Shown here: positions 1 to 56,673 of the stretch, one piece after another
Layout: the number at the start of each line of letters is the position of its first letter
Numbering within the stretch: position 1 is the first letter of the stretch
Source of the DNA: Pseudomonadota bacterium
GTDB lineage: Bacteria > Pseudomonadota > Gammaproteobacteria > Burkholderiales > Gallionellaceae
Assembly (NCBI GenBank): GCA_021821945.1
Contig: JAJZTF010000001.1
Location: 124,001 to 188,000 of the forward strand
Direction of reading: 5' to 3'
DNA: 64,000 nucleotides
The notes under the pieces: model-generated
The model's input: the letters and a program-made list of their open reading frames with translations, nothing else
Database searches by the model: none
What the model was told of the DNA's origin: nothing
Translations under genes and position numbers: made by a program

Positions 1-1419
1 ATCGGCACGCTGCTCACCGGCATCAACTTCTTCGTGACCATCATCAAGATGCGCGCGCCAGGCATGTCCTACATGAAGATCCCCGTTTTCACCTGGACCA
101 TCCTGGTGACCACGGTGCTGATCATGCTGTCCTTCCCTGTTCTGACCGTCACCCTGTTCCTGCTGACGCTGGATCGCTACCTCGACATGCACTTCTTCAC
201 GGGCGGCATGGGCGGCAACCAGATGATGTTCACCAACCTGTTCTGGGTCTGGGGCCATCCCGAGGTTTACATCGTGATCCTGCCTGCATTCGGCATCTAC
301 TCTGAAGTCGTCTCGACCTTCTCGCAAAAGCGCCTGTTCGGCTATGCCTCCATGGTCTACGCTTCGATCGCGATCGCGTTCCTGTCCTTCATCGTGTGGC
401 TGCACCACTTCTTCACGATGGGTGCCGGCGCCGACGTGAACGCCTTCTTCGGAATCGCCACGATGATCATCGCGGTGCCGACCGGCGTGAAGATCTTCAA
501 CTGGCTGTTCACGATGTATCGCGGCCGCATCCAGTTCACGACGCCGATGCTGTGGAGCATAGGCTTCATCATCACCTTCTCGATCGGCGGAATGACCGGC
601 GTCCTGCTGTCCGTCCCCGGTGCCGACTTCGTGCTGCACAACACCGAGTTCCTGGTTGCGCACTTCCACAACATGCTGATCCCGGGCGCGCTGTTCGGTT
701 ATTTCGCAGGCTATTCGTTCTGGTTCCCCAAGATGTTCGGCTTCCGTCTCGATGAGAAATGGGGTCGCCGCGCGTTCTGGTCATGGCTGGGCGGTTTCTA
801 CCTCGCGTTCATGCCTCTGTATGCGCTGGGCTTCATGGGCATGCCCCGCCGCCTGGTTCACTACGACAACCCGATCTGGCAGCCATACCTGCTGATCGCC
901 CTTGCAGGCACGGTCCTGATTAGCTACGGCATCTTCTGCCAGGTAGCACAGCTCTATGTGAGCATCAAGAACCGTGCGGCACTTCGCGACACGACCGGAG
1001 ACATCTGGAACAGCCACTCCCTGGAATGGTCTGTCACCTCGCCTCCTCCGTTCTACAACTTCGCGAAGGTGCCTTATGTGGAGTCCCTGGATGCATTGTC
1101 CTACAAGAAGGAACACGGCATTCCGTTCCGCGCCGAGGCACCCTACAGCCCGATCCACATGCCCCGCAACAGCGGTGTGGGCGTGGCGATAGGCGCATTC
1201 ACCTTCGTCTTCGGATTCGCCATCGTGTGGCATATCTGGTGGCTCGTGATCGCAAGCACCCTGGCCATCCTGGTTGCGCTGGTGATGCGCTCCAACGACG
1301 AAGACGTCGATTACATGCTGAGCGCGGAAGAAGTCGCACGCATCGAGAAGAACGGTGCCCAGGCTTCTGCTTCGGCGGCATCCGGCCTCTCGCACCACGA
1401 CATGATTACTCAAGGATAA
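1..1419 (+). CDS. cyoB: cytochrome bo3 ubiquinol oxidase subunit I (5' end outside window)
   Basis: Catalytic haem-copper subunit of an inner-membrane quinol oxidase that reduces O2 to water and pumps protons. The frame is open from base 1, so only the last 472 codons are visible. Counting visible codons, the HPEVY block (Cu-B histidine and the cross-linked tyrosine) is at 86-90, the His-His Cu-B pair at 135-136, and the HFHN block with the high-spin and low-spin haem histidines at 221 and 223. All catalytic residues of this part are kept. Many hydrophobic helices are present, and the hydrophilic tail resembles that of CyoB. cyoC follows 4 bp downstream. The related aa3-type quinol oxidase subunit is the alternative, but the order B-C-D-E with cyoE favours the bo3 type. 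Confidence 0.95.
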
Positions 1420-1423
1420 TGAA

Positions 1424-2041
1424 ATGAGCGCCACTACTCTCACTCACGATCACCTGCATGATGCGCATCATGAGGAACACCATGATGCAAAGGAGAATGC
1501 GCTGTTCGGCTTCTGGATCTACCTGATGACCGACTGCATCCTGTTCGCATCGCTTTTCGCAACCTATGCGGTGCTGCGCCACAACTATGCAGACGGGCCA
1601 ACAGGACAGGAAATCTTCGATCTCAAGTACGTTTTCGTCGAGACCATGTTCCTGCTGTTCTCCAGCTTCTCCAACGGCTTCGCGATGATCTCGATGCACA
1701 AGAAGGATCGCTTCGGAACGCTGAAGTGGCTGATGCTGACCGCATTGCTGGGACTGGGCTTCGTCGGCATGGAGGTGAACGAATTCGCCCATCTCGCGAT
1801 GGAAGGAAACGGACCCGACCGCAGCGGCTTCCTCTCCGCCTTCTTCGGCCTGGTGGGCACGCACGGCGCCCACGTGAGCATAGGTCTGATCTGGATGAGC
1901 GTGATGATGGGGCAGCTCTACTTCAAGGGCATCACCCCCGCGATCACCTCGAGGATACTGAGGCTCAGCCTGTTCTGGCATTTCCTGGACATCATCTGGA
2001 TCATGGTGTTCACCGTCGTCTATCTCATGGGAGTCCTATAA
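1424..2041 (+). CDS. cyoC: cytochrome bo3 ubiquinol oxidase subunit III
   Basis: A 205-residue membrane protein of the haem-copper oxidase subunit III family, the usual length for CyoC. It supports the stability of subunit I and carries no redox centre. The first 25 residues are unusually rich in histidine and aspartate/glutamate ([14 protein letters not shown] at residues 8-21); the rest forms about five hydrophobic helices. The conserved subunit III stretch around GTHGAHV and the closing helix beginning FWHFLDIIW are visible. An AAGGA ribosome site lies a few bases before the ATG. The gene sits between cyoB and cyoD with gaps of 4 and 1 bp, so it is part of one operon. The acidic His-rich N-terminus could bind metal, but that is only a guess. 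Confidence 0.95.
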
Positions 2042-2042
2042 A

Positions 2043-2369
2043 ATGCAAGGCCATACAGAACACGCACCCGTCACCACGAGCAGCAACACGACCGGATTCG
2101 TCATCTCCCTGCTGCTCACCCTGGCTTCATTCGGCATGGTGGCCAGCGGCAGCTTTCCGGTGTCCATGACGCTCTCCGCGATCGTCGTGCTGGCGGTCCT
2201 CCAGGTCATCGCCCAGATGCATTTCTTCCTGCATCTGGACAGTTCGCCCTCGCAGCGCTGGAACGTGATGATACTGATCTACACGCTGGTCATCATCGCG
2301 CTCCTGGTCGTCGGCACGCTCTGGATCATGTACAACACAAGCATCCGCATGATGCCGATGATGCACTGA
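2043..2369 (+). CDS. cyoD: cytochrome bo3 ubiquinol oxidase subunit IV
   Basis: A 108-residue protein with three hydrophobic segments (roughly residues 17-40, 44-66 and 77-100), the layout of CyoD. This small subunit helps assemble the bo3 oxidase and stabilise the Cu-B site. The MHFFLHLD stretch between helices 2 and 3 is typical of the family. The gene lies 1 bp after cyoC and 2 bp before cyoE, so translation of the block is probably coupled. Confidence 0.93.
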   Translation: MQGHTEHAPVTTSSNTTGFVISLLLTLASFGMVASGSFPVSMTLSAIVVLAVLQVIAQMHFFLHLDSSPSQRWNVMILIYTLVIIALLVVGTLWIMYNTSIRMMPMMH

Positions 2370-2371
2370 GC

Positions 2372-3274
2372 ATGAACACCTTCAAGGACTACCTCAACCT
2401 CACCAAGCCCGGGATCATCTTTGGCAACCTGATCTCGGCGGCTGGCGGCCTGTTCCTGGGAAGCCGCGGACATTTCGACGCGCTGACCTTTGCCGGCACG
2501 CTGGCAGGGGTCGCGCTTGCGATAGGCGGCGGCTGCGCGCTCAACAACGTCATCGATCAGGACATAGACGCCCTGATGAAACGGACGCAGAATCGCCCGC
2601 TCGTGCAGAAAAGGATACGCGCATCGCACGCGCTGCTGCTGGGCGCCCTGCTTTCCGTCCTGGGTCTTGCGATGCTCGCCACTTTCGCCAACATGCTGAC
2701 CGCATGGGTCACCTTCGCAGGCCTTCTGGTCTACGTCGTGCTCTACAGCATGTGGCTCAAGCGCAGCGCACACGGAACCTGGGTGGGCAGCCTCTCCGGC
2801 GCCGTGCCTCCGCTGGCCGGCTATTGCGCGACCAGCGGACAACTGGACACGGCGGGCTGGATCCTTTTTGCGATCTATGCGCTCTGGCAGTTTCCCCATG
2901 CCTATGCGATCGCCATCCTGCACCTTCAGGACTATGCAAAGGCTTCCATACCCGTGTATCCGGTGGTGCATGGCGTGGCACGCGTGAAGCGGGACATGCC
3001 CTTCTATGTCGCCGTCTTCACGGTTTGCGCGCTGCTTTTGTCCTTCACCCACAATACGGGCTTGAGCTATCTGGCCGTGATGCTCGCCCTGGGCATCGCC
3101 TGGATCAGGTCTACATGGCGCGATCGCAAGTGCGAGGACGACAGGCGCTGGGCCAAGAAGTCTTTCGGTTATTCCATCGCGATGGTGATGGCGATGAGCC
3201 TGATGATGTCTGTCGATTTCATCCCGAAATCCGATCTCGTCACCGTCCCTGTCTTCTCCCTCGCATCCCGCTGA
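2372..3274 (+). CDS. cyoE: protohaem IX farnesyltransferase (haem O synthase)
   Basis: Integral-membrane prenyltransferase that adds a farnesyl group to haem B to make haem O, the cofactor of the bo3 oxidase encoded just upstream. The 300 residues match the family length. The Asp-rich prenyl-diphosphate site NNVIDQDID is at residues 58-66 and is followed by RTQNRPL at 71-77, both hallmarks of the UbiA/CyoE superfamily. About seven to nine helices are predicted by eye. It is the last gene of the cyo operon and ends 4 bp before a perfect stem-loop. The protein would equally be called CtaB, but the context makes CyoE the better name. Confidence 0.95.
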   Translation: MNTFKDYLNLTKPGIIFGNLISAAGGLFLGSRGHFDALTFAGTLAGVALAIGGGCALNNVIDQDIDALMKRTQNRPLVQKRIRASHALLLGALLSVLGLAMLATFANMLTAWVTFAGLLVYVVLYSMWLKRSAHGTWVGSLSGAVPPLAGYCATSGQLDTAGWILFAIYALWQFPHAYAIAILHLQDYAKASIPVYPVVHGVARVKRDMPFYVAVFTVCALLLSFTHNTGLSYLAVMLALGIAWIRSTWRDRKCEDDRRWAKKSFGYSIAMVMAMSLMMSVDFIPKSDLVTVPVFSLASR

Positions 3275-3277
3275 ACA

Positions 3278-3300
3278 GCGCGCCCTCGATGAGGGCGCGC
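3278..3300 (+). terminator. stem-loop after cyoE
   Basis: A perfect 10-bp GC-rich inverted repeat (GCGCGCCCTC / GAGGGCGCGC) with a 3-base GAT loop starts 4 bp after the cyoE stop. No run of T follows on either strand, so it may act as an mRNA 3' end stabiliser or an inefficient terminator rather than a classic one. Confidence 0.6.
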
Positions 3301-3304
3301 ATGC

Positions 3305-3333
3305 TTGGGAAAGTGAGGCGAATCGCGTATATT
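3305..3333 (+). promoter_or_regulatory. candidate sigma-70 promoter of uvrA
   Basis: TTGGGA and TATATT are separated by 17 bp, 29 bp before the uvrA ATG. The -10 matches five of six consensus bases and the -35 four. I looked for a LexA-type CTG-N10-CAG operator here and did not find a convincing one, so SOS control is not supported by the sequence. Confidence 0.5.
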
Positions 3334-3362
3334 GACGGGTCGTCGCAATTTCCCAATCGATC

Positions 3363-6185
3363 ATGAACAGCATCAAGATACGCGGTGCGAGAACGCACAA
3401 TCTCAAGAACATAGACCTTGACCTGCCAAGCCACAAGCTGGTGGTGATCACAGGCCTTTCCGGCTCCGGAAAGTCCTCTCTGGCATTCGACACGCTCTAC
3501 GCAGAAGGACAGCGCCGCTATGTGGAATCGCTTTCCGCCTATGCCCGCCAGTTCCTGCAGCTGATGGAAAAGCCCGATGTGGATCTGATAGAGGGACTGT
3601 CGCCGGCGATCGCGATAGAGCAGAAGGCCACCTCGCACAACCCCCGATCCACGGTCGGAACAGTCACCGAGATACACGATTATCTGCGCCTACTTTATGC
3701 CAGGGCGGGAGATCCATACTGCCCCGAGCATTACATCGCGCTTCAGTCCCAAAGCGTGGGACAGATGGTGGACCATGTGCTGGCTCTGGAAGAAGGCACG
3801 CGCATCATGATCCTCTCCCCGCTGCTCGTGAACCGCAAGGGAGAACAGCTCGACATGTTCGATGAACTGCGCGCCCAGGGTTTCACGCGACTGCGCATAG
3901 ACGGCACGGTCCACGAGATGGATGCGCTGCCATCCCTTCAGAAGAACAAGAAGCACACCGTCGAGATCGTCGTCGACAGATTGCGGGTAAATCCCGAGTC
4001 CAAGCAGCGGCTCGCCGAATCCTTCGAGACAGCACTGCGCCACGCCGATGGCCGGGCGCTTGCGGTGGAAATGGACACCGGGAAGGAGCACCTGTTCTCG
4101 GCGAAATTCGCCTGTCCGGTCTGCAGCTATTCGCTGCCCGAGCTTGAACCTCGGCTTTTTTCATTCAACAATCCGATGGGCGCATGTCCGAAGTGCGACG
4201 GACTGGGTTCGATCAGTTTCTTCGATGCAAGGCGCATCGTGGCGTTTCCGGCGCTTTCCTTGAGCTCCGGGGCGATCAAGGGGTGGGACAGGCGCAACCA
4301 GTTCTATTATCAACTCCTGTCGGGGCTTGCAAGGCACTACGACTTCGACCTGGAACAATCCTTCGAATCCCTGCCCGACAAGATCCAGCAGATCGTCCTT
4401 TACGGCAGCGGGAAGGAGGAGATCGAGTTCCATTACATCAACGAACGCGGGAAGCCCACGCTGCGCAGGCACGCCTTCGAGGGAATAGTGAACAATCTGG
4501 AGCGCCGCTACCGTGAGACCGATTCCCCCACCATCAGGGAAGAACTCTCGAAATACCTGAACAGCCGCATCTGTCCGGAATGCGATGGAGCGAGACTGCG
4601 CCTCGAGGCGCGCCATGTCAGGTTCCAGGACAGGACGCTCTTCGAGATCAGCGAACTGCCGCTGCACGAATCCCTGGAATTCTTCAAGTCGTTGAAACTG
4701 CAAGGGCAGAAACGGACCATCGCGGAAAGGATCGTGCACGAGATCGCAAGCAGGCTCACCTTTCTGAACAACGTGGGGTTGAATTACCTGACGCTGGCGC
4801 GTTCTGCCGAGACGCTTTCCGGCGGCGAGGCGCAGCGCATCCGCCTGGCCTCGCAGATAGGATCGGGTCTGACGGGCGTGATGTATGTGCTGGACGAACC
4901 TTCCATCGGCCTTCACCAGCGCGACAACGACAGGCTGCTTGCCACGCTTTACAAGCTGCGCGACATGGGAAACAGCGTGATCGTCGTGGAGCACGATGAG
5001 GATGCGATAAGGCATGCAGACTACATCGTCGACATGGGGCCGGGTGCGGGAGAGCATGGAGGGAGGATCGTTGCAGAAGGCACGCCCGAAGACATATGCC
5101 GCAACGGGAATTCGCTCACCGGGGACTATCTGACCGGAAGACTCAAGATACCCATGCCCTTGACGCGAAAATCGCCCGATCCTGGACGCATGCTGCAGAT
5201 CACCGGCGCTTCGGGCAACAACCTCAGGGAGGTCACGCTCAATCTCCCGATAGGTCTGCTGGTCTGCGTCACCGGCGTGTCAGGCTCCGGAAAATCGACC
5301 CTGATCAACGACACGCTATACCCGGTCGTGGCACAACACCTTTATGGAAGCAATGTCGATCCCGCGCCATTTGAAACGGTCAGCGGCCTGGAATTCTTCG
5401 ACAAGGTGATCAACGTGGACCAGACGCCGATAGGGCGCACCCCCCGCTCCAATCCTGCCACCTATACCGGCCTCTTCACGCCGATAAGGGAGCTTTTCGC
5501 CGGCGTTCCTTCGGCACGCGAACGCGGCTACGAGCCGGGAAGGTTCTCCTTCAACGTGAAGGGGGGACGCTGCGAGGCCTGCCAGGGCGATGGGGTGATC
5601 AGGGTGGAGATGCACTTCATGCCGGATGTCTATGTCCCCTGCGACGTATGCCACGGCCAGCGCTACAACCGGGAAACGCTGGAGATCCAGTACAAGGGAA
5701 AGAACATCCACCAGGTGCTGCAGATGACGGTCGAGGCAGCACATGAATTCTTCAGCGCGGTTCCCGTCATCAGGCGCAAGCTGCAGACGCTGCTGGACGT
5801 GGGGCTGGGCTACATCACGCTCGGACAGTCCGCCACCACCCTATCCGGCGGAGAGGCGCAGCGCGTCAAGCTCTCGCTCGAGCTTTCGAAGCGCGACACC
5901 GGCCGCACGCTATACATCCTCGACGAACCCACCACAGGATTGCATTTTCACGACATCGCCCTCCTGCTCGGCGTGATACACAAGCTGCGCGATCAGGGAA
6001 ACACGCTGGTGGTGATAGAACACAACCTCGACGTGATCAAAACTGCGGACTGGGTGATAGACCTGGGTCCGGAAGGAGGAAGCGGCGGCGGTCAGATCGT
6101 CGCGGAAGGCGCGCCCCAGAACATCGCCAGAAACAAAAAGAGCGTCACCGGCATCTATCTCAAGCAGGCCTTGAAGCAATCGTGA
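3363..6185 (+). CDS. uvrA: excinuclease ABC subunit A
   Basis: DNA-damage recognition ATPase of nucleotide excision repair, which loads UvrB at lesions. The 940 residues and the order of parts match UvrA: first Walker A (GLSGSGKSS) near residue 31, a first zinc ribbon with CPVC at about 251 and CPKC near 277, the first ABC signature (LSGGEAQR) near 487, a second Walker A (GVSGSGKST) near 640, a second zinc module with CEAC at about 737 and CDVC near 760, and a second signature near 825. Both ATP sites look intact. Its TGA is shared with the GTG start of arfB, so the two are translationally coupled. The cyo genes upstream are separated by a stem-loop and a candidate promoter. Confidence 0.98.
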
Positions 6186-49769: not shown

Positions 49770-51065
49770 TTATTTTATCCTGTACAGCGCAGACCGGGCA
49801 TGCGCATCCAGCCCTTCGCCGTAAGCAAGCGTCGAAGCGATCCTGCCCAGGCTCTGCGCCCCCTTCTCGGACACCTGTATCAGGCTGCTGCGCTTCTGGA
49901 AGTCGTAGACGCCGAGCGGGGAGGAGAAGCGCGCGGTTCCGGATGTCGGCAGCACATGGTTGGGACCCGCGCAGTAATCTCCCAGGGATTCGGAGGTATG
50001 ACGCCCCATGAAGATCGCGCCGGCATGCCTCAGCCCGGGCAGAAGCGCCTCCGGGTCCTCGACCGACAATTCCAGGTGTTCGGGGGCGATGCGGTTGCTG
50101 ATCTCGCATGCCTCCTCCAAGCTTTTCACGTGGATCAGCGCCCCCCGGTTCTGCAGCGCGGTCTCTATGATCGCGCGGCGCGGCATTGCTTCAAGCAGGC
50201 GCTCGGCGCTTTCCGCCACCTTCTCGATGAAGTCCGCATCGGGGCAGAGCAGTATCGCCTGCGCCAGCTCGTCGTGCTCCGCCTGTGAGAATAGATCCAT
50301 CGCGACCCAGTCCGGATCGGTTTTGCCATCGCAGATCACCAGGATCTCGGAAGGACCCGCGATCATGTCTATGCCGCAAACGCCGAACACGCGGCGCTTT
50401 GCGCTGGCCACATATGCATTGCCGGGCCCCACGATCTTGTCCACCCTGGGGATGGTCGCCGTGCCGTATGCCAGCGCACCCACAGCCTGGGCCCCGCCTA
50501 TCGTGAACACGCGGTCGACGCCAGAAAGAAAAGCCGCCGCCAGCACCAGCTGGTTCTTGTGCCCATCGGGTGTCGGCACCACCATGACCAGTTCCGCGAC
50601 ACCCGCCACCTTTGCGGGCATTGCATTCATCAGGACCGAAGAAGGATAGGCCGCCTTGCCGCCCGGCACATAAAGACCCACGCGATCCAGAGGCGTGACC
50701 TTCTGCCCCAGCAGCGTGCCATCGGCGTCCAGATAGCTCCAGGATGCCTGGACCTGCTTCTCGTGGTATTCCCTGACGCGCATGGCAGCCGCCTCGAGCG
50801 CGTTGCGCTGATCTTCGGGCAGCGCATCGAACGCCCGCTTCAATTCTTCCTTCGGCAGCTCGAGTTCACGCGCATCCCCGACCTGCAGCCTGTCGAACTT
50901 CTCCGTGCATTCCAGCACGGCGGCATCGCCGCGCGCGCGCACGTCATTCAGGATGGAGGCGACCGTCGCCTCAAGCCTTTCATCCGCCTCCGCCTCGAAG
51001 GCAAGCAGGTTGTCGAGCCTTTGCCCGAAGTCGGGCGCGCCGCTCGATAGTCGTTGGATATCCAT
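49770..51065 (-). CDS. hisD: histidinol dehydrogenase
   Basis: Zinc enzyme for the last two steps of histidine synthesis, oxidising histidinol to histidine with NAD. The 431 residues match. [16 protein letters not shown] near residues 207-222 and AGPSEILVI near 228-236 are family signatures; the catalytic glutamate-histidine pair is in RIAPEHLEL near 323-331, and the zinc-binding [10 protein letters not shown] lies near 258-267. It is not followed by other his genes: the next gene downstream is tRNA-Tyr, and hisG lies about 3.4 kb upstream beyond an inserted pair of genes. Confidence 0.97.
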
Positions 51066-51133
51066 ATCAAAAGCCGAGTCTCAAGTGTATCCCGGCATTC
51101 TAATGGACAACCGCTCCTTCTTGGAAGCCGACT

Positions 51134-53740
51134 TCACGCAAACTCTTTCGCATAGAATCTGTTCAGCATCTTCTCGACGGACAGGACGAGCAGTATGCGC
51201 CTCTCAGCACCCGCGGGCTTAACCAGGCTTTCGAGCAGGGAATTGCCGTCCGAGAGCATGTCGGGCACGGACTCTATCTGCGCGGTCGGGATTTCCGCGA
51301 TCTCTCCAAGATTGTCGACCAGGATTCCAAAGCGCGCCTCTTCGTTCTGCTGCGAGCGCAGGATCAGGACCTGCCGCCTCGATTCGACCCCGCGCCTTCT
51401 CTCCTCGCTGCGCCTTCCAAGGATTTCCGAAAGATCGAAGATGGTCAGCGCCTGATCATCGTACATCAGACAGCCCTCGACCCAGTCGGACGCGCCCGGC
51501 ATCCTGGTAAGGCGATCCGCGTCTATCGCCTCGACGACGGAGCCGGTCCTCACGCCATACCAGCTCTGGCCGATATAGAAGCTCGCAATGTCCGTCGTGT
51601 CGGCACTCCTGGTCTGGCGCAGCGCATAGGTATCGACCGCCATGTCGCGTATCGAATAGAGGCTCTCCACGTCGATCACGCGGTCCGACAGAGGCGAGAA
51701 GATCAGCGCCACCACATCGTTCTGGTTGCGGTCCTCGGGCGACTTGTATTCCCTGTACCCCGAACTCATGCATGAGCCGACGGCGTAGTAGCAGCCGTCG
51801 TGGATGATGATGTTGGCACAGCTCTCCCCGTGCTGAAGATTGAAGAACTCGTAGCCTATCGTCAGCTTCATGCCCGGCTTGAGGCCTTGATCCGTGCTGG
51901 AAATCACCCGTCCGTCCCGTTCGGCGAACACCGCGAATGCACCCGGGACCAAGGTTCCGTCAGCCTGCCTGGGCAGGGCGTCATTCAGCATCGCCTGAAA
52001 TTGCGGGGTCGAGTCGAACACGATCGCGATCCCGCCGACCGGGTCATTGCCTTCAGGCTCGCGCACCGCCGCGGTGAAGATGTAGGTCTGCCCTCCTGCA
52101 TAAAGTTCGCTCGCCCCGAAACCGGACGTGGCATAGCTCTGCGTGTCCTTCAGTCCCAGGGTGGGGCGCACCCAGCCTTCGTTGAGCAGCTTGCCGATCC
52201 AGTCGTTGTATGCCGGATTCGAGACGGCGACGACGCGCCCCGAATGATCGAACAGGATCAGGTTGCTGTAAACCGTATATAACGAATTTATCTTTCTCAG
52301 CACCTCCGTGATGCCCCGCCTTCTGTCCTGGTCGAATGGCCCGCCTGTTGCCAGCTCTTCCCTGAACAGCCTAGTCAGCGCCCACCACCTGCAGTCGTTT
52401 GCCCGCTCGTAAAGATTGCGGTCCATGATCTCGATCGCGAGTGCCGCCTGGGTCCCGCAGTCGAAAAGGGCCGTCGAGATCACCATCTTGTACAGGTTGG
52501 TCGTGGACTCGCTGTAGACGTTGCGCGTCCGTATGCCAGTGCTGCCGATTTCCCTCAGCAGGATTTTCGCGAAATCGGCGTTATGGGCCGCGCTCTCCCG
52601 CGCAAGCCAGATGTTGCCGTTCCAGACCGCGCGGTTCAGTTCCTGCTGTATGCTCGCCGCCTTCAATGGAATATCGCGCAATGTCTGACTGAAAAGGTTG
52701 GATGTCTCGAGCACGCCCCTCACCAGATCATCGGGCACGAGATCAAGCTCGTGCGCCTCCGACATTTCGAATGCATGGTTCAAAGGCGCCATCGCGTGCC
52801 CAAGCCATCCCGGCCCGTCGTACCCCTGGTACCCGTGGGTCCTGCAGGTCGTCGCCAGATATTCCCGCCCGGCGAACCTGATGATCCGGCAACCGTTTTC
52901 AAACGAGGGTTCTATTTGCACGCCTATCGGGAACTGGTGGGGATCGCTGCTGGCGATGATCCTGCCCGACGCATCCAGCAGCGTGATGATATTCCAGTCG
53001 TCTTCGGCGACCAGGCTCTCGAATATCCTGCGGCATTCATCCTGCAGCCTGAAGCACAGACAAAGCACGCCGACCGGATGGCTGCCATCCTTAGACATCA
53101 CGCGGTACGCATAGATCAGCGGACTGTCGTCGCCCGGCAGCAGGTCAGTGGGGCGGAAGACCTCGACATATCCGGCATCGGTGGTCAGCGCCTCCTTCAG
53201 GAATTCGTCGGAAGTGCGCAGGACCGCGTTTCCGGAATCGAGTTGCGCCAGCACTTCGCCGCCGGGGGACAGCAGGATGATGTTGTGATACACGGAATAC
53301 TTCTTCACGTATTCGGCAAAGCGGGCGCGCATGCCGGCCTGCCATTGCGCATCCCGCCTGATCTTTCCGTCAGACTCGACCGCTTCCGCGAATGCGCAGA
53401 TCTCGCTGTCCATGGCGAGAAATCCTATGTCGGCGGTGCGCTCGAAAAGATTCCTGACCAGCACGTCGATGGCGACGCGCGCGCAGGAATGAAGGCTCAT
53501 CGCGGCCTTCTTGTAATGCTCGCCCGAAAGCTGATCCAGAAGCACGGAGGCAAGGCTGCTGAAATCCTTGCGCATCTTGGTGATGTCGGTGCCCGCGCCG
53601 AGCAGCTGCCCAAGCAGGGTCAGGTTGTCATAGACCGCCTGTATTTCGGTCAGTCGTTTCTGGTCCGGCAGAAGGCCGCCCATGTAGCGGGACAAATAGG
53701 CAAGATCGGTCCTGGTCTGCGTTCTCTTGTGCTTCCTCAA
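51134..53740 (-). CDS. soluble tandem double-Cache sensor with C-terminal CheW domain
   Basis: An 868-residue protein with no membrane helix or signal peptide. Counting from the chosen start, two homologous units are visible. Each has a helical lead-in with a shared motif (RNLFERTADI at 96-105, RNLYERANDC at 441-450), then a Cache-like core (YSVYHNIILL at 148-157, YTVYSNLILF at 488-497) and a second Cache-like subdomain (near 245-320 and 600-690). Residues 717-868 form a CheW domain (SFYIGQSWYGV, LTIFDLSEILG, LVDNLGEIAEI). The start is a TTG at 53738-53740 after GAGGAG; a sigma-54 promoter within the longer frame rules out earlier starts. It probably couples a cytosolic small-molecule signal to a chemosensory CheA kinase. 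No che gene lies nearby. Confidence 0.8.
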   Translation of the reverse strand: MRKHKRTQTRTDLAYLSRYMGGLLPDQKRLTEIQAVYDNLTLLGQLLGAGTDITKMRKDFSSLASVLLDQLSGEHYKKAAMSLHSCARVAIDVLVRNLFERTADIGFLAMDSEICAFAEAVESDGKIRRDAQWQAGMRARFAEYVKKYSVYHNIILLSPGGEVLAQLDSGNAVLRTSDEFLKEALTTDAGYVEVFRPTDLLPGDDSPLIYAYRVMSKDGSHPVGVLCLCFRLQDECRRIFESLVAEDDWNIITLLDASGRIIASSDPHQFPIGVQIEPSFENGCRIIRFAGREYLATTCRTHGYQGYDGPGWLGHAMAPLNHAFEMSEAHELDLVPDDLVRGVLETSNLFSQTLRDIPLKAASIQQELNRAVWNGNIWLARESAAHNADFAKILLREIGSTGIRTRNVYSESTTNLYKMVISTALFDCGTQAALAIEIMDRNLYERANDCRWWALTRLFREELATGGPFDQDRRRGITEVLRKINSLYTVYSNLILFDHSGRVVAVSNPAYNDWIGKLLNEGWVRPTLGLKDTQSYATSGFGASELYAGGQTYIFTAAVREPEGNDPVGGIAIVFDSTPQFQAMLNDALPRQADGTLVPGAFAVFAERDGRVISSTDQGLKPGMKLTIGYEFFNLQHGESCANIIIHDGCYYAVGSCMSSGYREYKSPEDRNQNDVVALIFSPLSDRVIDVESLYSIRDMAVDTYALRQTRSADTTDIASFYIGQSWYGVRTGSVVEAIDADRLTRMPGASDWVEGCLMYDDQALTIFDLSEILGRRSEERRRGVESRRQVLILRSQQNEEARFGILVDNLGEIAEIPTAQIESVPDMLSDGNSLLESLVKPAGAERRILLVLSVEKMLNRFYAKEFA

Positions 53741-53779
53741 AATGCTCTCCTCGTTTTTTGTTTTCGATGCGAAGGAGAA

Positions 53780-53796
53780 AGCAATATCGGTGCCAG
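53780..53796 (-). promoter_or_regulatory. sigma-54 (RpoN) promoter of the Cache-CheW gene
   Basis: The - strand reads CTGGCACCGATATTGCT: TGGCAC and TTGCT with exactly ten bases between the GG and GC dinucleotides, matching the -24/-12 consensus. The predicted start site falls near 53770, giving a leader of about 30 bases with GAGGAG before the TTG codon. The placement relative to a real ribosome site makes chance less likely. Confidence 0.8.
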
Positions 53797-54121
53797 CATC
53801 CGGAAAGGCGGGAGAAAAACCATATATATGGCTGAACATACGGATGCTTTTTGTCTGGCAGAAAGCAGGAAGCAGGTCTTCCGGTTGCGCGAATGTTGGA
53901 GTGGATGACCCTGATTTTTTCTCTTGCGCACCGGATCGGTGCGCACATCGGAAGCCATGCACGCCATGGATGCGTCCATTCAATGATGCCTGAAAAGTAT
54001 CCGCTTCGGTAAAATGGAACAACGCCGAGACGTTCTGTTTGTTTGCGGGAAGTTTGGCGGATCGGGATTTGTGCTCTGGCCGAGTTCACCTCTTCATGTC
54101 ATCCGGATTGCACGTGATGCG

Positions 54122-54145
54122 TTTTAGGCTCCGCAGGACCTAAAA
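54122..54145 (+). other. leader hairpin of the small secreted protein
   Basis: Arms TTTTAGG and CCTAAAA enclose an inner TCC/GGA pair with a GCA loop and one bulged C, 20 bp before the ATG. The A/T arms make it similar to a bidirectional terminator for the divergent region, but in this position it may also shape the mRNA leader. Confidence 0.45.
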
Positions 54146-54165
54146 ACAACACAAGGAGACGCATC

Positions 54166-54495
54166 ATGTTGAAAGGCAAGACCGGCATCGCAGTACTGGC
54201 AATTTTCGCAGCATGCATTTCACAAGCCGCCATGGCAGAGGGCGATTTCGCGAAGGACCATCCGAGGCGCGCAGAGGTCAATCACAGGCTCAACAACCAG
54301 AATGCCCGCATCAGAAACGAAGTGAGGGAAGGCGACATGAGCCACGAGAAGGCCGAGCGGCTGCATCGCGAAGACCACAGGATCCGCCAGGAAGAACGCC
54401 GCATGGCGGAAGAACATGGAGGCGCGATCACGCCCCAGGAGCAGAACATGCTGAACCGTCAGGAGAACAGGGTCAGCCGCCAGATCGGCCAGTAG
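54166..54495 (+). CDS. small secreted, highly charged protein of unknown function
   Basis: A 109-residue protein with a clear signal peptide (hydrophobic core AVLAIFAACISQAAMA, cleavage near residue 24). The mature part is almost all polar and helical, rich in Arg, Glu, Asn, Gln and His, with repeats such as NQNARIRNEV, HREDHRIRQEERRM and NRQENRVSRQI. I recall similar uncharacterised periplasmic proteins in many betaproteobacteria, but have no function to offer. AAGGAG precedes the ATG. The stop touches the convergent hisG stop with no bases between. The upstream hairpin at 54122-54145 may be part of its leader. Confidence 0.8.
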   Translation: MLKGKTGIAVLAIFAACISQAAMAEGDFAKDHPRRAEVNHRLNNQNARIRNEVREGDMSHEKAERLHREDHRIRQEERRMAEEHGGAITPQEQNMLNRQENRVSRQIGQ

Positions 54496-55134
54496 TTATC
54501 GCTTGAGCGCTTCTTCAAAGGCATCCAGCATGGGCTGGATGTCTTGGCGCTTGAGCTTCAGGGCCGCCTGGTTCACCACCAGGCGTGAAGAAATGTCGCT
54601 GATATGCTCGACTGCCTTCAGGTCGTTGGCTCGCAAGGTGTTGCCGCTGCTCACGAGATCCACGATCACATCCGACAGTCCCACGAGAGGCGCGAGTTCC
54701 ATCGATCCGTAAAGCTTGATCAGGTCTATGTGCACGCCCTTGCCTGCGAAATGCTCGCGCGCTGCGTTCACGTATTTGGTCGCCACGCGCAGGCGCGCCC
54801 CCTGCCTCACGGCGGATTCGTAGTCGAAGTCGTTCTTCACCGCGACCATCATCCGGCAGCGCGCGATGTTCAGATCCAGCGGCTGGTAAAGCCCTTCCCC
54901 GCCGTGCTCGTTCAGCACATCCTTGCCCGCCACGCCGAGATCGGCAGCGCCGTACTGAACATAGGTCGGGACGTCGGATGCGCGCACGATGATGAGCCTC
55001 ACGTCCTGCCGGTTGGTGTCCAGTATCAGCTTGCGGGAGGACTCCGGATCCTCGAGCGCGCGTATGCCTGCCGCCTCCAGCAATGGCAGCGTCTCCTCGA
55101 AAATCCGCCCCTTGGACAGCGCTATCGTAATCAT
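54496..55134 (-). CDS. hisG: ATP phosphoribosyltransferase, short form
   Basis: First enzyme of histidine synthesis, joining ATP and PRPP. At 212 residues it lacks the C-terminal regulatory domain, so it should need a separate HisZ subunit, which is not in this window. [21 protein letters not shown] opens it; the PRPP-binding segment [14 protein letters not shown] lies near 160-173. It follows murA by 8 bp, the usual betaproteobacterial order, but hisD does not follow directly. Confidence 0.96.
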
Positions 55135-55142
55135 CTCTTCTC

Positions 55143-56673
<1,531 letters not shown>

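Follow-up and report, generated by a model that had tools for sequence, protein, structure and literature searches.

CheWS of Treponema denticola, in which CheW is fused to a CheR-like SAM sensor whose ligand and array role were tested experimentally, was presented by its authors in 2023 as the first characterised CheW-fused chemotaxis sensor (PMC10653840). Among the sensor domains already established in further CheW fusions, the same paper names CZB and PAS; the word "Cache" is absent from its main text, and its Supplementary Fig. S10 contains 30 undescribed CheW architectures, which may include dCache-CheW (PMC10653840). For Cache domains themselves, a survey from 2016 predicted 78% confidently outside the cell, recognised only two small families as principally intracellular, and tied the long first Cache helix to a membrane helix; CheW is unmentioned in its main text (PMC4822843).

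In literature searches no title or abstract opening on a Cache-CheW protein was found, and such a protein may still be mentioned deeper within a paper. The dCache_1 receptors and kinases DctB, Mlp24 and PctA are extracytoplasmic; each carries one dCache unit, flanked on both sides by membrane helices, and has an MCP or kinase as output. CheV is likewise a CheW fused to a regulatory domain; its extra domain is a receiver and not a dCache sensor, and two CheV proteins are encoded in the genome studied here.

The protein described below combines two dCache units with a C-terminal CheW domain. By fold it belongs to dCache_1 and by profile to CheW; it shares the sensor fold of DctB, Mlp24 and PctA in both units, lies outside the location feature of the dCache receptors in having, by hydropathy, no flanking membrane helices, and is not an MCP. 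CheWS may be regarded as its nearest precedent in how it would work: both are soluble sensors fused to CheW without a receptor hairpin, tied to CheA-bearing arrays, and with input from an internal metabolite, tested for CheWS and proposed here (PMC10653840). They differ in that CheW is N-terminal in CheWS and C-terminal here, in that CheWS has a sensor of methyltransferase-like fold and is described in spirochetes whereas tandem dCache units are present here, and in that ligand and array role are experimental there and only proposed here (PMC10653840). The CheW-CZB and CheW-PAS proteins also join CheW to a sensor domain, but the sensor domains differ (PMC10653840). With CheWS as precedent, a receptor-free sensor on CheW is not a new idea (PMC10653840). 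The departure is from the picture in the main text of the 2016 survey (PMC4822843), in that this family keeps the long Cache helix without a membrane segment and would couple it to a chemotaxis adaptor.

We favour, with modest confidence, a reading in which the protein works in the cytoplasm of a flagellated bacterium as a soluble sensor for an internal small molecule and, though no chemoreceptor itself, acts on the chemotaxis kinase. It draws on the dCache folds, the CheW fold, the lack of a membrane segment and of a PF00015 match, the CheA, flagellin and PilJ counts, the listing of CheW for nearly all of the best homologues, the reach into Campylobacterota, the genomes with a single CheA and the CheWS precedent; counting against it are the low conservation of CheW, the rarity of its RG pair, a clade without CheW and the scarcity of chemotaxis neighbours.

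Gene and domain architecture

The gene (51134..53740 (-); 868 aa, open frame with TTG start) was located in the window, i.e. the whole 64,000-nucleotide stretch of contig JAJZTF010000001.1 that was analysed. The TTG start at 53740 (-) is consistent with close homologues, which start at the same place and begin M(R/K)K. GAGGAG at 53747..53752 (-), read from the letters just upstream of the TTG, is a candidate ribosome-binding site, and the open frame continues in-frame upstream to 54022. In the window the gene is flanked by hisG and hisD, the order over 49770-56393 (-) being murA-like gene, hisG, twin-dCache-CheW gene and hisD. Between hisG and the twin-dCache-CheW gene, on the opposite strand, lies an ORF of 109 aa (54166-54495 (+)) with an N-terminal signal-peptide-like stretch. 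The locus of the closest relative (L020) has its upstream-side neighbours in common with the window, including an opposite-strand 109-aa ORF with a similar start at the equivalent place; a further relative of 74% identity (L021) has other neighbours.

From sequence and model, the protein consists of two dCache units in tandem, each headed by a very long helix, followed by a loose linker and CheW. An N-terminal helical arm (residues 13-53; 53582..53704 (-); AF2 model helices 13-19 and 21-47) forms the first arm of the unit-1 hairpin and precedes dCache unit 1 (residues 54-330; 52751..53581 (-)), which includes a first helix of 56 residues (54-109). An inter-unit helical segment (residues 331-387; 52580..52750 (-)), delimited by the AF2 model and by conservation and containing conserved P358 and W373-N374-G375, leads to dCache unit 2 (residues 388-686; 51683..52579 (-)), which includes a first helix of 66 residues (388-453). 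A variable linker (residues 687-712; 51605..51682 (-)), with pLDDT below 50 at residues 696-712, connects unit 2 to the CheW domain (residues 713-868; 51137..51604 (-)), where the usual RG pair is replaced by D761-D762. In the model, each long helix arises from a helical hairpin that takes the place of the first membrane helix in a membrane receptor.

Pfam assigned CheW (PF01584) to residues 720-861 (E 2e-20; 73.2 bits, the cut-off being 23.5). dCache_1 (PF02743) was sub-threshold in the query (residues 142-312, repeat 1 only; 33.7 bits against a cut-off of 45), Cache_WalK matched weakly at residues 477-534, and the NCBIfam scan of the query gave zero matches at E <= 1. No Pfam match at E <= 1 was obtained in the query for the MCP signalling domain PF00015 or for the CheR family, the sensor region being dCache. 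The Cache-Cache-CheW order and the lack of a signalling hairpin proposed in the preliminary description were thus borne out, the first by sequence for the duplicated sensor unit and CheW and by prediction for both dCache folds, the second by the PF00015 result.

Internal duplication and dCache fold

An internal duplication of about 345 residues marked by paired motifs had also been proposed, and the motifs were recovered exactly: RNLFERTADI at residue 96 is paired with RNLYERANDC at 441 (offset 345), and YSVYHNIILL at residue 148 with YTVYSNLILF at 488 (offset 340). GYQGY (303) and GYREY (661) form a further repeat mark. In a blastp self-comparison, residues 80-310 aligned with 422-669 (24% identity over 260 columns, E 3e-10), and the repeat score of 47.0 bits compares with a best of 28.9 among 2000 shuffles of unit 2. 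Profile-profile comparison of unit 1 with unit 2 (43 sequences per unit) gave a probability of 99.5% and an E value of 2.4e-22 over 257 columns, so that all three comparisons lie above chance.

By AF2 model and fold comparison, both repeats have the dCache fold with a long first helix, and DctB was the best fold match. Structure prediction and dCache profiles, named beforehand as the check on the Cache assignment, agreed on it: among 43 family members, PF02743 was matched at E <= 0.01 by 39 in repeat 1 and by 33 in repeat 2, the query itself staying below the cut-off. When repeat 2 of the query was cut out alone, no Pfam family was matched at E <= 0.01.

A search with unit 2 for a single-unit ancestor or another output domain gave 336 matches, many of the 120 listed being fragments from short contigs or unit 2 plus CheW. 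Four shorter proteins on long contigs (P0251, P0297, P0312 and P0335) have unit 2 without unit 1, three of them with CheW; P0251 and P0297, two of five such matches inspected, start with an arginine-rich, out-of-frame-looking stretch, so these two may be broken copies and not natural single-unit forms. Elsewhere in this genome, the query has just one further Cache-type match (E 3.8e-4; G000 C3:120912-121334, within L019:2933-5488), in a protein that by reading resembles a transmembrane GGDEF-EAL protein and is distant from the present family.

Distribution of the family and orthologues without CheW

Of the 7998 candidates scored in the protein search, 4462 are relatives at E <= 0.001. CheW is listed for 118 of the 120 best homologues, and the two without it are shorter (749 and 794 aa). 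In species genomes, at least 598 stretches match the pattern and at least 572 encode a relative at E <= 1e-3; the best 80 of the latter were used as the locus set, and in 77 of these the frame is 800 residues or longer. Titles among these best 80 include Azonexus, Propionivibrio, Zoogloea, Thauera, Sideroxydans, Gallionella, Methylovorus, Methylobacter, Steroidobacter, Allochromatium, Acidithiobacillus, Sulfurimonas, Helicobacteraceae, Sulfuricurvum and a Deferribacteraceae MAG, and full-length members extend to Campylobacterota. One member (L067) lies in a MAG of 1.8 Mb titled Chthoniobacter flavus, the other hits of the family being mostly proteobacterial or campylobacterotal; the title or the binning may be wrong. 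No relative was found among viral contigs when these were scanned with just the query.

In an even sample of the class, a relative at E <= 1e-20 is rare (4/276 genomes), and two of the four lack CheW: the proteins of G219 and G256 end directly after unit 2. With the 674-residue G219 protein as query, 120 matches were listed (50-94% identity; mostly 670-690 residues, range 523-704), among them Methylomonas, Methylomarinum, Agarivorans and Alteromonas, and CheW was absent from the precomputed Pfam lists of all 120. A match was found in 20 of 81 genomes related to G219: 10 CheW-less proteins (673-676 residues), 9 longer ones (856-899 aa) and 1 broken; CheW was confirmed by Pfam in the five longer proteins examined, from five genomes.

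In a tree of the sensor part (123 tips), the 39 sampled CheW-less proteins together form a single clade with support 1.0, and its sister group consists of six fused proteins of G219-related genomes. Midpoint rooting and unit-1/unit-2 rooting both nest this clade beside fused members, the latter with modest support; the branch that joins the units is long (3.28), and several supports are low. A single loss of CheW would be the simplest account and is preferred over a single gain. We regard the CheW-less clade as the most informative new fact, because the sensor is there separated from its presumed plug; the natural CheW-fused and CheW-less orthologues also provide a clean test of the contribution of CheW.

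Conservation and the part played by CheW

Mean top-residue frequencies (78 sequences) were 0.69 and 0.75 for the two long helices, 0.54-0.63 for the Cache subdomains, 0.62 and 0.57 for the other helical parts, and 0.20 for the linker. CheW, at 0.43, is the least conserved domain when set against 0.54-0.75 for the other domains and helical parts. RNL(F/Y)ERTADIG in unit 1 and DRNLYER in unit 2 are invariant or near-invariant in the same sequences. The conserved RG pair of CheW belongs to its NLRG motif. At this position, R is present in 22/84 and G in 29/84 fused members, both together in 6/84; the residues found there vary among members, and a few retain RG. This genome has ten other CheW domains: RG stands in the corresponding motif of nine, and the tenth, in a long ChpA-like kinase, was left out of the alignment. 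The predicted CheW fold of the query matches the CheW of solved complexes, and CheW scored above the Pfam cut-off in all five distant fused members examined.

For array docking, ligand binding and output we infer the following. The long helices would build a dimeric rod, and one or more of the dCache pockets would bind a cytosolic metabolite. CheW, being loosely linked and weakly conserved, would mainly anchor the rod in CheA/CheW rings, where a ligand-dependent shape of the rod would alter CheA activity through proximity, the mechanism put forward for the CheR-like domain in Treponema CheWS (PMC10653840). In the CheW-less clade, the rod presumably reaches the same pathway via another contact. 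The preliminary description had envisaged a receptor-free sensor that plugs a cytosolic ligand signal straight into a chemosensory array. Its sensor part stands, with two dCache units, CheW, neither membrane segment nor MCP domain, and CheA in all 54 carrier genomes checked, but docking by CheW cannot be the whole story, because CheW is the weakest-conserved domain, its RG pair is mostly gone and one clade does without it. If the favoured reading holds, swimming bacteria could feed an internal chemical signal directly into their steering machinery, and a widespread family would offer a receptor-less route for energy or metabolite taxis.

A bolder version, which we put forward only tentatively, is that a dCache sensor returned to the cytoplasm and doubled into a rod signals to the flagellar machinery without a receptor, the rod making a novel contact with CheA, receptors or the motor switch; the rod itself would have to provide this contact because one clade signals without CheW.

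The strongest alternative, although unlikely in our estimation, is that the tandem dCache rod acts via some partner outside the chemotaxis array and that CheW is a drifting or vestigial attachment. The weak conservation of CheW and the loss of most RG pairs would fit this, as would the rarity of chemotaxis gene neighbours and the monophyletic CheW-less orthologues, which keep the rod at 50-94% identity between one of them and its best 120 matches. It is opposed by the retention of a recognisable CheW in the five distant fused members and in 118/120 top homologues, and by the CheW-less genomes themselves, in which CheA was found in 11/11 checked and flagellin in 10/10 checked.

A role as negative regulator, with a divergent CheW that occupies ring positions without receptor coupling and so loosens or silences arrays in one dCache state, appears improbable. 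An intact CheW fold from which the RG pair is mostly lost, with a bulky rod attached, is what it would lead one to expect; however, as the residues at the RG position vary and a few members keep RG, the loss of one CheW surface is not uniform.

Association with CheA, flagella and pili

CheA (PF02895) was found in 54/54 carrier genomes against 183/276 in the class sample (naive binomial 2e-10), and flagellin in 61/62 carriers against 152/276 (naive binomial 4e-15), the one miss being a genome of 1.4 Mb; these counts ignore relatedness, and such figures overstate independence, because the species share ancestry and the carriers include some (Campylobacterota and others) from outside the sampled class. 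Among the relatives of G219, CheA was present in 18/18 carriers and in 19/26 non-carriers. By these counts, the family is tied to CheA-bearing flagellated bacteria. In six of the 54 carriers, CheA was matched only once, and this CheA lies among other che genes in all six and beside mot-like genes in two; labelled by tblastn to the genes of the present genome, the surroundings hold motA and motB (G306), cheV and a motB-like gene (G285), cheV and cheW (G320, G317), cheY, cheR, cheD and cheB (G288), and cheB, cheR and cheW (G305). Stand-alone CheW proteins picked up by the family profile frequently have a CheA of about 730-765 aa close by, a result that a generic CheW profile could give equally.

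Across the 80 loci, the twin-dCache-CheW gene is mostly solitary and chemotaxis genes are rarely near. When CheA and CheW of this genome were compared with the loci by tblastn, no neighbouring match was obtained, many loci being shorter than the 8 kb flanks; with its che and mot proteins, CheY-like or MCP-like matches were seen in a minority. Divergent CheW genes were missed by this approach, and a Pfam check revealed three Chp-type loci (L023, L026 and L031; bases 1-4500), with the cluster within 8 kb upstream on the other strand. It comprises a PilJ-domain receptor and the Hpt-bearing start of a large ChpA-like kinase, with CheW in two of the three, and belongs to the type IV pilus systems and not to the flagellar ones; it may hint at a second array partner. 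Clustering of neighbours across loci, with a rough ORF caller and antisense frames included, revealed no widely shared partner.

A role of the protein in the type IV pilus chemosensory (Chp) array and not in a flagellar one, as these 3/80 loci and a Chp-type cluster in this genome might suggest, is very improbable. The PilJ domain, found in type IV pilus receptors, occurs in 39/54 carriers (129/276 in the class sample), which excludes the pilus system as a general partner: 15 of the 54 carriers lack it, whereas flagellin is missing in only 1/62.

Cellular location

The top 19-residue Kyte-Doolittle mean of the query was 1.30, at residue 420 within the second long helix, and the highest value among 62 aligned members was 1.91. 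A mean of 1.6 was exceeded in 17 of 78 sequences (77 locus proteins plus the query). In L041 and L024 the peak precedes the first possible start codon; the other 15 peaks fall in the second long helix (maximum 1.85), in unit 2 (maximum 2.07, near residue 676, a strand in the AF2 model) or in CheW, and none lies near the N-terminus. By hydropathy and by reading, the protein is therefore taken to be cytosolic, in agreement with the earlier claim that it has neither membrane helix nor signal peptide, the latter point judged on the same two grounds; a membrane-bound or exported protein was rejected on the low maximum of the query and the lack of an N-terminal hydrophobic peak after the start codon in other members. 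An exported or membrane-bound sensor part acting as an ordinary extracytoplasmic dCache receptor, for which the mostly extracellular location of Cache domains (78%; PMC4822843) and the 15/78 members above 1.6 within the aligned protein might speak, is scarcely credible and, as far as hydropathy can tell, largely refuted by the maximum of 1.30 and the placement of those peaks, and by CheW functioning in the cytoplasm.

Chemotaxis genes of the host genome

The genome contains a flagellar cluster with two cheA, two cheV, cheZ, cheR, cheD and motAB, a second cluster with cheB, cheD, cheW, an MCP gene (labelled by reading) and cheA, an MCP-cheW-cheR-cheD group, and the Chp-type cluster with CheW, a PilJ-type receptor and an Hpt-CheW-receiver kinase. 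Arrays are therefore available for docking. Two near-identical cheW genes lie on different contigs (G000 C12:49598-50020 and C21:69617-70033; L013 and L132), the C12 copy containing a few undetermined bases; together with near-identical MCP signalling halves and similar cheD genes, they suggest that a chemotaxis block was recently duplicated.
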